From Deferrivibrio essentukiensis (GTDB taxonomy: Bacteria; Chrysiogenota; Deferribacteres; Deferribacterales; Deferrivibrionaceae), in NCBI RefSeq assembly GCF_020480685.1, contig NZ_JAJAFU010000003.1, positions 62,001 through 126,000 of the forward strand: a stretch of DNA of 64,000 nucleotides, given 5' to 3'. Of the stretch, positions 11,116 to 44,088 are shown piece by piece. The notes below the pieces were generated by a model. It was not told the DNA's origin. It made no database searches and saw only the letters and a list, made by a program, of their open reading frames with translations. Position 1 is the first letter of the stretch, and the number at the start of each line of letters is the position of its first letter. A program made the position numbers and the translations under genes.

Positions 11116-11328
11116 GAACTTTTTATCTGTCGTTAAACCTTTTTTTGTAACTTTATACTTTATTGCTAAATATTAAGTTTCTAAAACCTTTATAACCTAT
11201 ACAATCTTTATAAGAACTATTCTTTGCCCACAATTTACTGCTCACTTTTCACATCCCACTTTGCACAATTTTATAATTCAACTTTATATCACTTCTGCTC
11301 TGTGGGCATCTTAAGTATAACTTATTAT

Positions 11329-14172: not shown

Positions 14173-14189
14173 AATATCTTAAGTCATAT

Positions 14190-14260
14190 CCGTTTCCTAC
14201 GCCGGCATTACCCGGTTCAGGTTCAGGGGTATATCTCAGCCATTCACGGCACCCCCACGG
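14190..14260 (-). ncRNA. TPP riboswitch (THI element)
   Basis: In minus-strand sense the region carries the hallmark pieces in order: GGGGGTGCC, GGCTGAGA, ACCC, GAACCTGA, CCGGGTAATGCCGGCGTAGG and GAAACGG. P1 closes as CCGT (14257-14260) with ACGG (14190-14193). It precedes thiC-thiE-thiL and is followed by an intrinsic terminator, so thiamine diphosphate should switch the operon off. Confidence 0.96.
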
Positions 14261-14273
14261 AAATTTTAGAGTT

Positions 14274-19225: not shown

Positions 19226-19275
19226 TTGACAAAAATATACAGTGTAATATATCATCTGACTGATGAGTCAGTCAG
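19226..19275 (+). promoter_or_regulatory. tetR promoter and palindromic operator over the start codon
   Basis: TTGACA (19226-19231) is followed by 18 bp and TATCAT (19250-19255). A palindrome with 8-bp arms, CTGACTGA-TGAG-TCAGTCAG (19256-19275), spans the predicted transcription start and the ATG at 19263. This is the expected layout for autorepression by a TetR protein. The ATG is 7 nt past the -10, so the mRNA would be leaderless or nearly so. Confidence 0.7.
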
Positions 19276-19823
19276 AAAACACGAAAGAGAAAATAATAAA
19301 ATCTGCAATAAAAATATTCGCTCAAAAAGGGTACTGGAGAACCAAAGTATCTGATATCGTAGCTGATGCAGGGTTTGCACAGGGCAGTTTCTACAACTGT
19401 TTCAGCGGGAAAGAAGAGTGTTTTAAAGAGATTTTATTAATGCTTCATAATGAAACTGTAAGCCAAGTCGAAAGCACACTTTCAGCACTTCCGACCAAAG
19501 ATAAACTTCCGGGTTTTTTAAAACTTTTAAACAAAAGATTTAGGCAATCCCAAGATATCGCAAAAATATTTCTTTATGAGGCTTTAACATGCAGTCACGA
19601 GCTTAGAGAAATATACATATCTTTTAAACAGAAAAACTTTGAAATTTTATATTCAATTTTAACTGAACTAAAATGTGAATACAGATATGAGAAGGCCTTC
19701 ATTTTAAATAGTTTTATAAAAAGCATGATTGAAACTTTAATCATAGAGAATAACTTTGACATTGATAAGGTTAATAAAATCATTGATAATACACTAAAAA
19801 TTGTCATAAAGGAGCGACAATGA
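19263..19823 (+). CDS. TetR family transcriptional regulator of the efflux operon
   Basis: A 186-residue protein whose first 50 residues are a TetR helix-turn-helix: IIKSAIKIFAQKGYWRTKVSDIV then AGFAQGSFYNCFSGKEECF. The remainder is a diverse ligand-binding domain. It is the first gene of tetR-tolC-emrA-emrB and most likely represses the operon until an efflux substrate binds. A CTGACTGA/TCAGTCAG palindrome overlaps its start codon. The gene has no Shine-Dalgarno. Its stop overlaps the tolC-like start (ATGA) with an AAGGAG site inside the end of tetR. Ligand unknown. Confidence 0.9.
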   Translation: MSQSENTKEKIIKSAIKIFAQKGYWRTKVSDIVADAGFAQGSFYNCFSGKEECFKEILLMLHNETVSQVESTLSALPTKDKLPGFLKLLNKRFRQSQDIAKIFLYEALTCSHELREIYISFKQKNFEILYSILTELKCEYRYEKAFILNSFIKSMIETLIIENNFDIDKVNKIIDNTLKIVIKERQ

Positions 19824-21116
19824 AAAAGATACTTTTGATGCTTTTGGTCTCGTCCAATATCTTTGCATTAAATATTGACGAAGCTGTACAAAATGCTCTG
19901 CAAAATAACCATATTTTAAAGTTTTACGAATCTTCAGTCAAAAGCAGCAAATACGATACAGAATCTTCCAAATCGTTACAAATGCCCTCTTTTTTCTTAG
20001 ATTCTTCATACACATTACTTGATAAAGAGAAAAAGCTTAATGTGGAAATCGCTCCGGGAATAACGAGCAGTATGACTCAAGTAAAAGATAAATACTTTGA
20101 TGCAACTGTAGGTATAAAGTACAATATTTATACAGGGGGAGCTGTTAGCTCAAACATCAACATTAATCGTTACAAAGAGGAAAGTGTCAAACAAAACTAT
20201 TTAGAGTTTAAAAATGAGCTTATTTTTCAAGTAAAAAAGCAATATGCAGAGATACTTAAGCTTTTGGCACAAAAAGAAATAGCGCAAAGACATCTTGATG
20301 CCTTAAACAACCATTATTCAGATGTAAAAAATTTTTATAAACAAGGTATAGTAGCCGAATTGGACTTGCTGCAAACTGACGTAAAATTAAAAGAAGCTAA
20401 ACAGTCTCTTACCAAAATTGATAATTACATCAAAGTTGCTAAATCCGCCCTAAGTCTTTTAATAAACAGTAATATTGAAAGCTCTGATTTTCCTTTGACA
20501 GAATTAAATCAAAACACTATCGAAAAAACAATAAAGATAGATACTCTTTACGAGGAGGCAGTAAAAAACAGACCTATAATAAAACAGACCTATAATAAAA
20601 CAGATTGAAGCAGAAATTAATGCCCTCAATGAATCTAAAAAAACTATAAAATCAGGCTATTTACCAAAAATTTATGCTGCAGGCGGATATACTTATAACA
20701 ACCAAAATGATGAAATTTCCCCAAAAGGTGGATTTTTTGGAAAACTCGGTATTCAAATGAATATTGACTGGGATTACCCAACGAAGAAGCTTAAATCTGT
20801 CAGCGAAAAACTAATTGCACTAAATCAACAGAGATTAAATACAATTTTGAAAGTAAAACTTGAAGTTAAAGAAGCTTACGAAACATATCAAACTGCTCTT
20901 TTAAACCTTGAAGTAGCCAAAAGTGCTGTGGATGAAGCTAAAGAATATAACAGAATAATCAAGCTCAAATATGACAATGGCCTAGCTTCCAACTCTGATG
21001 TATTAGATGGACAAGCACTACTCACGACAGCACTAAGTAACGAAAAGAATGCTTACTACGATCTATTTATAGCATACTTCCAGATAGAAAAAACAATTGG
21101 AAAAAACTTGAGGTGA
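19820..21116 (+). pseudogene. TolC-like outer membrane efflux protein, frameshifted by a 16-bp tandem duplication
   Basis: The first frame (19820-20608) encodes a signal peptide and the first OMF half. It ends prematurely just after RPIIKQTYNKTD. Reading on in the shifted frame from 20600 gives QIEAEINALNESKKT then SGYLPKIYAAGGY, a typical OMF continuation, through to 21116. Between them is a direct duplication of ACAGACCTATAATAAA at 20568-20599. Removing one copy gives an uninterrupted 426-codon gene of normal OMF length (outer membrane channel for EmrAB-type pumps). It may be a real loss, an assembly or sequencing error, or a reversible switch. The rest of the operon is intact. Confidence 0.85.
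20565..20604 (+). repeat. 16-bp tandem repeat (2.5 copies) inside the tolC-like gene
   Basis: The sequence has an exact 16-base period from 20565 to 20604, with unit ACAGACCTATAATAAA and the octamer AAAACAGA occurring three times. Sixteen is not a multiple of three, so gain or loss of one unit changes the reading frame of the surrounding gene. Confidence 0.95.
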
Positions 21117-21120
21117 TTAT

Positions 21121-22248
21121 ATGAAGAAACAGGTAAAAATTGCTCTTGTACTGCTTTTTATTGGGCTTATTGCAGCCATTGTAATCGGTTATAAGTGGCT
21201 TGAAAACAGAAAACTCTATGCCAGCACTGATGCTTTTTTTGTCAAAAGTGACAAAATAGCAAATGTATCATTTAAGAGGATTTCAGGAAAAATAGTTAAA
21301 ATGAACTTTAAGGAAGGGGATAGTGTAAAAGCCGGTGACATCATGGCCGAAATTGATAGCACCGATTACCAAACCCAACTTGAAAAAATTAATCATAATA
21401 TAAATTCACTTTTAGCTGAAAAAGATGCCTTGACTGTTAACAAGGATAAGACAGAAAAATCACTTAAAATAGAGAAAAACATTAAGAATGATACGCTGAA
21501 ATCTGTTGAGAAAGAGATTGAATCTTTTAAACAGAATATTAATGAGGTTGATATACAACTCAGTCAGCTTGAAAAAGATTATAACAGGTATAAAAACTTA
21601 AAAGAGGAGAAAGCAATATCTGAAAAAAGCTTTGAAGATATTCAAACAAATCTCAAAAGACTTAAGGCTAAAAAAGCTTCCCTATCAGAGAAACTTAAAT
21701 CACTTTATTACTCAAAACAAATTGCTGAAAAAGACCTTGCTCTTGTAGATGTTAAGCTCAAAATAATTTTTGAATTGGAGAAAAAGCTACAATCTCTGGA
21801 CGAGCAGATAAGCGCCCTGAAAAAGGACAGAGAAGACATAGTCAAAATGATAGAATACTGCAAATTAAAAGCTCCTTTTGATGGAGTCATAGGGCAAAAA
21901 TACGCTGAAGAAGGGAGCGTAGTAAAGGCCGGCAGTTATATTTATTCATTAGTTGATACGACTAATCTTTACGGATATGTATTGATGGAAGAGGAAAAAA
22001 TTAATGGAGTAAACCCTGGCGATGTAGCTGAAATAAAAATTGATGCTTACCCTGATGAAAAGTTTGAAGGTGAAGTAGTGGAGGTATTCCCTGCATCTGC
22101 TGCCACTTATGCCCTGGTGCCAAGAGATATTTCTGCGGGTGAATTTACTAAAGTATCACAGAGGATTCCTATAAGAATTAAATTTACATCAGGGAATTTG
22201 CAACTATTAAGAGTTGGACTTGGTGGAGAAATAAAAATAAAAAGGTAA
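21121..22248 (+). CDS. HlyD/EmrA family membrane fusion protein
   Basis: This 375-residue periplasmic adaptor has one N-terminal transmembrane anchor (about residues 6-26). The first half of a split lipoyl domain follows (GKIVKMNFKEGDSVKAGDIMAEI). Next comes a long helical hairpin rich in Lys/Glu and Leu heptads (about 80-240), then the second lipoyl half (KAPFDGVIGQKYAEEGSVVKAG) and a C-terminal beta domain. It would bridge the EmrB-like inner membrane transporter and a TolC-type channel. A GAGGTGAT site precedes the ATG, 4 bp after the broken tolC-like gene, so it can still be translated independently. Confidence 0.92.
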   Translation: MKKQVKIALVLLFIGLIAAIVIGYKWLENRKLYASTDAFFVKSDKIANVSFKRISGKIVKMNFKEGDSVKAGDIMAEIDSTDYQTQLEKINHNINSLLAEKDALTVNKDKTEKSLKIEKNIKNDTLKSVEKEIESFKQNINEVDIQLSQLEKDYNRYKNLKEEKAISEKSFEDIQTNLKRLKAKKASLSEKLKSLYYSKQIAEKDLALVDVKLKIIFELEKKLQSLDEQISALKKDREDIVKMIEYCKLKAPFDGVIGQKYAEEGSVVKAGSYIYSLVDTTNLYGYVLMEEEKINGVNPGDVAEIKIDAYPDEKFEGEVVEVFPASAATYALVPRDISAGEFTKVSQRIPIRIKFTSGNLQLLRVGLGGEIKIKR

Positions 22249-22251
22249 CAT

Positions 22252-23811
22252 ATGGTTATTGATAATGAAAAACCGATATACGAGCAGATTAGTTTAATCG
22301 GACGCCTTTTAATCACCTTTGTGGTGATGGCTGGTACATTTATGGCAATATTAGATACAACAATAGTAGATGTTGTAGTACCAAAAATGATGGCTCCGCT
22401 AAAAACAGATTTATACGGTGTGCAGTGGGTTATTACATCTTATATGGCTTCAGCTGCCACAGCATTATTGTTGGTAGAATCTCTTGATAAAGTCTTAGGG
22501 CTCAGCAAGCTTTTTATTATAGGGATAACAATTTTCACAATATCAAGTTACTTATGCGGTGTTTCTTCTGACTTGACGCAGATGATAGTTTTTAGATGTA
22601 TGCAAGGCACAGGAGAAGCTTTTGTAGTAGCTTCAGCTCAGGCAATTCTGTTTTCTCTTTACCCCCCTCATATGAAAGGGCTTGCTATGGGTATCTACGG
22701 AATGGGAGTAAGTTTTGCTCCGGCACTTGGCCCGACACTCGGCGGGTGGCTTACCGAACACCTCGGATGGAGGAGTGTTTTTTTTGTTAATATCCCTATT
22801 GGTCTTATGGTAGTGGTTTTGGGGCTTCTTCTTCTACCAAAATATTCAAAATCTACTGAGAAATTTAAATTTAATTTTATAAGCTATTTTTTTCTTGCGT
22901 CATTTACAATATCACTACTAATTATGCTATCAAAAGGGCAGCAAAAAGGGTGGTTTCAGTCTAATTTTATCTTTGTACTATTTTTCTTAAGTGCTATATC
23001 TCTTATAATTTATATAATTTTCGAACTTATTTCAAAATATAAACTAATCGACTTTTCTATCTTTAAAATTCCTCAATATAGGTATGCCACACTAATATAT
23101 TTCTTTACACTTGGGCTTTCAATCTATCAGCTTTTTTATCTAATACCACTTTATTATGAAAACCTTAGGCATTTTACTACCCTACAAACAGGCCTTCATA
23201 TGTTGGGATTTGCCATATTTATAGGGCTTACTTCTCCTATAGCAGGGATACTTTCAGACAAAATTGGCGAGCATTATGTTTTACTCTTTAATACTGTGCT
23301 TTACATTTTAACAAGTGTATTTCTTATGCCACAGTTAAATTACTATACGCCATCAGTCCAAACTATCTTGCTGACAGTCCCTCTCGGATTTTCTTTGGGC
23401 AGTTTTTTTGCTCCAATTACTACACTTGCCATGAGACACTTAAAAGATAAAACAAGTCTTGGCGTTGGACTTTTGCATTATTTACGATTTATGGGTGGGT
23501 CATTTGGCACGGCAATCGCGACTAACACGTTGCAATCTAAATATAACTTACACTTTGAAGAAATTGGAAATATGCAAAATCAGTCACATGTGTACTATTA
23601 TTTCACTACACTTAAAGAGCAACTCTCTGGCCTTTTAAGTCCCGATGTTATAGATCTGAAAATGGGTGTTTTGCTTGGAAAAGCTATGTCAGTTCAGGCT
23701 TTAAGTAATGCTTTTCAAGATGTATTCAGCCATGCGGGATATTTTGGAATTTTTGGACTTTCCTTTTTGACTTTTGTGTTTATTCATGAGATAAAAGCAA
23801 AAAAGGCTTAA
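22252..23811 (+). CDS. DHA2 family MFS drug:proton antiporter (EmrB/QacA type)
   Basis: A 519-residue protein with about 14 hydrophobic segments, the size of the DHA2 family. Typical blocks are visible: [17 protein letters not shown] in the first helix (with the family D), [10 protein letters not shown], and the motif-C-like [17 protein letters not shown] in helix 5. It would expel drugs or other amphipathic compounds together with the adjacent adaptor. An AAGGTAA site precedes the ATG. hisF begins 13 bp after its stop, so the biosynthetic genes may share this transcript. Substrate not predictable. Confidence 0.92.
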
Positions 23812-42662: not shown

Positions 42663-42681
42663 ATTTATTCATGAGGTGGTT

Positions 42682-44088
42682 ATGGCCGACAAAAGAAATA
42701 TCTTAATAGTAGATGATGACGATAATATGCAAAGTGCGCTTCTTGAAACTGTAAAAAGGCTGGGGTTTGATGTGGATACCGCTTCAGATGGCAGTGAAGG
42801 CTTTGATATGGCAATGAAAAAGACTTATGATTTGATTATATCCGATATAAGGATGCCAAAGGTTGACGGACTTAAAATGTACGAAATGCTTAAATCTGCA
42901 GGGATTCACACCCCTATATGCTTTATCACCGCATACGGCACAGTTGATAATGCCATTAAAGCGTTAAAAGAAGGTGCTTTCGACTTTATAATCAAACCTT
43001 TCCCTCTTAACGTTATTGAAGAGATGATTTCAAGGGTATTTGAAATTCAGGAAGTAAAACATTCCAAAAAAGAGGGGGAAGTAAATTTAATATTCAAAAG
43101 CAAATTTATGGAAGAGGTTTTTAATATAGCAAAGGATATAGCTCCCACTGAAGCTACAGTCCTTATCACAGGGGAGTCAGGTACAGGTAAAGAAGTAGTC
43201 GCTAAATTTATTCATGAAAACAGTAAGAGAAAGGGGCAATTTATTGCCATAAATTGTGCGGCTATCCCCGAAAGTCTAATCGAAAGCGAACTCTTTGGCT
43301 ATGAGAAAGGTGCTTTTACAGGGGCAATAAATAAAAAACCGGGTAAGTTTGAGCTTGCAGATGGAGGCACTCTCCTCTTGGATGAAATAGGAGAAGTCCC
43401 GCTAAATCTTCAAGCCAAGCTTTTGAGAGTCTTACAGGAAAAAGAGATAGAAAGGCTTGGCTCCACAACTAAACAAAAAATAAATGTCAGAATAATAGCC
43501 ACTACTAACAGAAACTTAAAAGATGAAGTAGAAAAAGGAAATTTCAGAGAAGATTTATATTACAGACTAAATGTAATAAATATAGAATTGCCCCCTTTGA
43601 GAAAGAGAAAAGAAGATATAATGGCTATGACAAGTTTTTTTATAAAAAAATACAGCGAAATAAATTCAAAACCTTTAAAGGAGCTTTCTCAGGAAACAGT
43701 AAACCATTTACTAAATTACGATTGGCCTGGAAATGTCAGAGAATTAGAACATACGATTGAGAGAGCTGTAATACTTTCCAAAGAAAAATACATCACCCCG
43801 AGAGATTTATTTTTACACGGCATAACATTCAATGACACACTCTCAAGTGAGCAAAAAATCCAATCTATAACATATGAAAATAATATTCATGAAGAGCATG
43901 ATAACATAAAATTAGAAGCCGGTGTCACAATCTCTCAAATGGAGCAAGAGCTTATATTAAAAACCTTAAGAGAAGTTGACGGCAACCGTACCAAAGCTGC
44001 AGAGCTGTTAGGGATCACTGTCAGGACTTTGCGCAACAAGCTCAACGAATATAGAGAAAAAGGTATTGATTTGACAGGTATCGATTAA
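42682..44088 (+). CDS. Sigma54-dependent response regulator (NtrC family)
   Basis: A 468-residue activator. The receiver has phosphoacceptor D55 (ISDIRMPK). The AAA+ domain has Walker A GESGTGKE near residue 168, the sigma54-contact loop ELFGYEKGAFTGA near 212 and Walker B GGTLLLDEIGE. The C-terminal Fis-type helix-turn-helix is GNRTKAAELLGITVRTLRNKL. A GTG at 42676 lies inside the SD, so I start at the ATG with GAGGTGG before it. It follows its cognate kinase by 19 bp. Targets must be sigma54 promoters elsewhere; I found none convincing in this window. A terminator follows. Confidence 0.94.
   Translation: MADKRNILIVDDDDNMQSALLETVKRLGFDVDTASDGSEGFDMAMKKTYDLIISDIRMPKVDGLKMYEMLKSAGIHTPICFITAYGTVDNAIKALKEGAFDFIIKPFPLNVIEEMISRVFEIQEVKHSKKEGEVNLIFKSKFMEEVFNIAKDIAPTEATVLITGESGTGKEVVAKFIHENSKRKGQFIAINCAAIPESLIESELFGYEKGAFTGAINKKPGKFELADGGTLLLDEIGEVPLNLQAKLLRVLQEKEIERLGSTTKQKINVRIIATTNRNLKDEVEKGNFREDLYYRLNVINIELPPLRKRKEDIMAMTSFFIKKYSEINSKPLKELSQETVNHLLNYDWPGNVRELEHTIERAVILSKEKYITPRDLFLHGITFNDTLSSEQKIQSITYENNIHEEHDNIKLEAGVTISQMEQELILKTLREVDGNRTKAAELLGITVRTLRNKLNEYREKGIDLTGID

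Follow-up and report, generated by a model that had tools for sequence, protein, structure and literature searches.

A putative, very recent slippage duplication probably inactivates the outer membrane channel gene of an EmrAB-type efflux operon in Deferrivibrio essentukiensis

Our analysis of a 64,000-nt stretch of the Deferrivibrio essentukiensis genome (the window, in contig 3 of a 2,356,432-bp draft comprising 64 contigs) indicates that the TolC-type outer membrane factor (OMF) gene of an EmrAB-type efflux operon is interrupted by a 16-bp tandem duplication. We think it likely that this is a very recent loss-of-function allele that arose by slippage duplication and is revertible at low frequency, and that no evolved switch is involved.

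A perfect 16-bp duplication interrupts the OMF gene

The affected gene and the repeat within it comprise the following features:

19820–20608, + strand: 5' part of the TolC/OMF gene, ending at 262 aa (PF02321, E = 4.4e-22; TIGR01844 under its cut-off)
20565–20604, + strand: perfect 16-bp tandem duplication, 2.5 copies (TRF and pattern search; 16 bp in excess of both congeners)
20565–20572, + strand: AAAACAGA, 8-bp direct repeat opening each unit, a putative slippage substrate (read directly)
20607–21116, + strand: 3' part of the OMF gene, out of frame but conserved (PF02321, E = 1.4e-15 for 20757–21116; dN/dS of 0.03 to the nearest congener)

The initial annotation had described a 16-bp tandem duplication with an extra half unit, and this is what TRF and a pattern search both recovered at 20565–20604. 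ACAGACCTATAATAAA occupies 20568–20583 and again 20584–20599, followed by ACAGA; the match along the tract is 100%, and its TRF score of 80 is the highest of any tandem repeat in the window. When up to two mismatches were allowed, ACAGACCTATAATAAA gave two matches versus 0.13 expected by chance. Within 310 kb sampled from the same genome, the tract is the sole perfect tandem repeat whose unit measures 14 bp or more, and a Markov-1 null produced none.

The OMF reading frame that starts at 19820 runs into a TGA at 20606–20608 after 262 of about 426 codons, and the C-terminal half lies in another frame that is open from 20583 to 21116. The frame break proposed at the outset is borne out both by this stop and by two congeneric genomes, that of Deferrivibrio metallireducens V6Fe1 (G001; 2,358,333 bp in a single contig, the nearest genome compared) and a second one (G002), each of which has a single unit, is exactly 16 bp shorter at the tract and carries an uninterrupted OMF gene (426 and 427 aa, respectively). 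A TolC-type channel requires both OEP repeats (PF02321). The V6Fe1 gene has the two within one frame, whereas in the window no single protein has both and each fragment carries one. With the frame displaced by the extra 16 bp, the predicted protein ends after 262 residues and lacks the second OEP repeat, a loss which suggests that the channel no longer functions.

The operon and its regulation

The remaining parts of the operon are:

19226–19255, + strand: candidate promoter-like TTGACA-N18-TATCAT ahead of tetR (consensus scan)
19256–19277, + strand: palindrome TCTGACTGATGAGTCAGTCAGA across the tetR start codon (arms of 9–12 bp, conserved in three genomes)
19263–19823, + strand: TetR-family regulator (PF00440), overlapping the OMF start by 4 bp
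21121–22248, + strand: EmrA-like periplasmic adaptor, intact (TIGR00998, HlyD domains)
22252–23811, + strand: EmrB-like DHA2 MFS permease, intact (TIGR00711)

The gene order is thus tetR, OMF, emrA-like, emrB-like, with the three neighbours all full length, as had been thought, and the order OMF–adaptor–permease is also found in all seven relatives examined. The EmrA-like adaptor matches TIGR00998 over its full length (E = 1.8e-67) with 227.7 bits, against a curated cut-off of 390.8, while the EmrB-like permease scores 453.4 bits with TIGR00711, above the curated cut-off of 230.2. The identification of the broken gene, which has PF02321 matches on both fragments, as the OMF of an EmrAB-type operon is upheld. 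The EmrB model match, the EmrA match below its cut-off, the adjoining OMF gene and the TetR regulator liken the locus to the EmrAB-TolC tripartite MFS efflux operon; it differs in that the operon includes its own OMF gene, in this case a truncated one. In E. coli, the TolC gene is located apart from emrAB, and emrAB is controlled by MprA/EmrR rather than by a TetR protein.

Loss of the OMF would leave the pump with no outer-membrane channel of its own, unless one of four other OMFs with two repeats, encoded elsewhere in the genome (contigs C1, C32, C19 and C7), stands in; these could serve the EmrAB-type pump. In addition, about 510 nt ahead of emrA would go untranslated, perhaps with some polarity on emrAB. 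Rfam models detected no RNA element at the OMF locus, and a contig search with the 3' OMF fragment as query returned zero relatives. The plasmid collection contained no DNA similar to the operon, so that nothing found there ties it to a known plasmid.

The palindrome TCTGACTGATGAGTCAGTCAGA sits just 3' of the promoter-like site and is kept in all three congeneric genomes, among which the promoter region upstream diverges more than the palindrome itself. It is likely an autoregulatory TetR operator, partly inside the tetR coding sequence.

Age of the frame break

The window's species is a Deferrivibrio-type thermophile with a reported ANI of 89.79% to V6Fe1 (PMC11896075), and aligned blocks of the window are 88.7–95.1% identical to that genome. 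Among the three congeneric genomes compared, the 16-bp lesion is by sequence private to the window genome, because both congeners carry one unit and intact OMF genes. Over the 64 kb, the tract is the only indel relative to V6Fe1 that clearly breaks a window gene. Where window ORFs have apparent stops in V6Fe1, the differences lie at ORF ends and no gene is broken.

The dN/dS to V6Fe1 is 0.03 for the OMF 3' part (dN 0.027, dS 0.88), compared with 0.056 for the 5' part, 0.048 for tetR, 0.054 for emrA and 0.045 for emrB. When G002 was used as the outgroup, a single residue change in the 3' part proved specific to the window and four to V6Fe1. Constraint downstream of the break is therefore not relaxed, suggesting that the break is very recent and that no measurable period of relaxed selection has followed it. 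The recency claimed in the initial annotation is thus supported by dN/dS, by the lineage-specific changes and by the absence of the duplication from both congeners.

Probable origin by replication slippage and plausible reversion

The 8-bp AAAACAGA recurs at 20581–20588 and at 20597–20604, the last copy just past the final unit, such that each unit opens with AAAACAGA and closes right before the next one, the layout by which slippage duplications are defined (PMC4169377). Short direct repeats are what replication slippage usually acts on, and we propose that in an ordinary event of this kind the nascent strand moved from one AAAACAGA copy to the next, 16 bp away, whereby 16 bp would have been copied twice. 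The second 8-bp copy that would have been present before duplication is inferred, and V6Fe1 counts against it: at the homologous place that genome has AAAACAGA and, 16 bp further on, AAAGCAGA, which is 7/8 of a second copy. In the window's genome, direct repeats 8 bp or longer, with offsets of 8–40 bp, occur at 1.46 per kb, so such a slippage substrate is commonplace and the site is not special.

De novo two-copy duplications of 9–60 bp are known from the beta-lactamase gene penA of Burkholderia thailandensis, and some of them, flanked by direct repeats of 3–8 bp, have been attributed to slippage during replication (PMC4169377). The OMF duplication resembles these in its two copies, its place inside a coding sequence and its bounding direct repeats. 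At the same time, the penA duplications kept the protein functional, changed its substrate range and were selected (PMC4169377), whereas the 16-bp unit disrupts the OMF frame, with no selection or reversion observed here. The two penA duplications tested reverted at 9.3e-7 and, for a 60-bp unit, 3.6e-5 (PMC4169377). Published duplications make a reversion rate of some 1e-7 to 1e-5 plausible for the 16-bp unit, and what is expected of the OMF duplication is ordinary two-copy instability. A search for literature on pneumococcal capsule duplications with reversion yielded nothing usable.

Alternative explanations

There is a small but appreciable chance that the duplication is a sequencing or assembly artefact (or a PCR slip) and that the strain has one unit and an intact OMF gene. 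From the assembled sequence alone, such an error would look identical to a real recent mutation; the draft is in 64 contigs, the OMF is intact in the congeners, and apart from the tract the frame is fully preserved and under constraint, as if nothing had happened. On the other hand, the tract is embedded some 80 kb deep in a 170-kb contig and, at 40 bp, is short relative to reads, a typical short read being longer than this. Neither a second perfect tandem repeat whose unit is 14 bp or longer (in 310 kb) nor a further evident frame break (in 64 kb) was found, and this lack of similar lesions in the sampled sequence suggests no general tendency of the assembly to such errors. In annotation, the OMF gene is best flagged as frameshifted or else verified in the reads.

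The initial annotation had also raised on/off phase variation of drug efflux, a claim that the evidence does not support. An evolved contingency locus, in which slippage toggles the channel, would fit a perfect in-gene tandem repeat whose unit is not a multiple of three, as well as the reversion of short two-copy penA duplications at 9.3e-7 to 3.6e-5 (PMC4169377). However, the tract has two copies only and is missing from both congeners, there are no comparable repeats in 310 kb of the genome and no sister loci, 8-bp direct repeats are frequent, and four other OMFs are intact. The tract of a contingency locus is conserved or varies in copy number among relatives; here both congeners have a single unit, and no copy-number variation beyond the one duplication was seen among the three congeneric genomes. 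Absence in the congeners, uniqueness in 310 kb and the abundance of direct repeats together argue for a chance mutation, and we regard a contingency locus as very unlikely. Just as doubtful is a two-copy contingency switch in Deferribacterota, with duplicated and single-unit alleles coexisting in populations of the window's thermophilic species and toggling the channel. Recoding, in which ribosomal frameshifting or polymerase slippage would let the duplicated allele still encode a full-length channel, could explain the open, conserved 3' frame, but recency accounts for that conservation, and we give recoding almost no credence, since upstream of 20583 this frame is closed and there is no long slippery run: the frame opens only after a TAA at 20580, some nine codons are left ahead of the zero-frame TGA at 20606, and the A runs in the overlap are just 4 long, with no strong slippery site.

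If the duplication is, as we favour, a chance loss-of-function mutation, a Deferrivibrio-type efflux operon is here seen at an early stage of channel-gene loss, with little import beyond annotation. Should both lengths occur in one culture, the locus would offer a simple test case for the speed of two-copy reversion in a thermophile.

Other observations in the window

A sigma-54-type response regulator gene at 42676–44088 is intact in the window, and its V6Fe1 counterpart (L029/L030) is split by a 1.3-kb insert containing a 413-residue ORF that, by eye, resembles an IS256-type (mutator) transposase. About 190 bp at 11130–11322 lack a V6Fe1 counterpart; the alignments on either side are otherwise continuous. 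A TPP riboswitch lies on the minus strand at 14177–14266 (RF00059, 75.3 bits).
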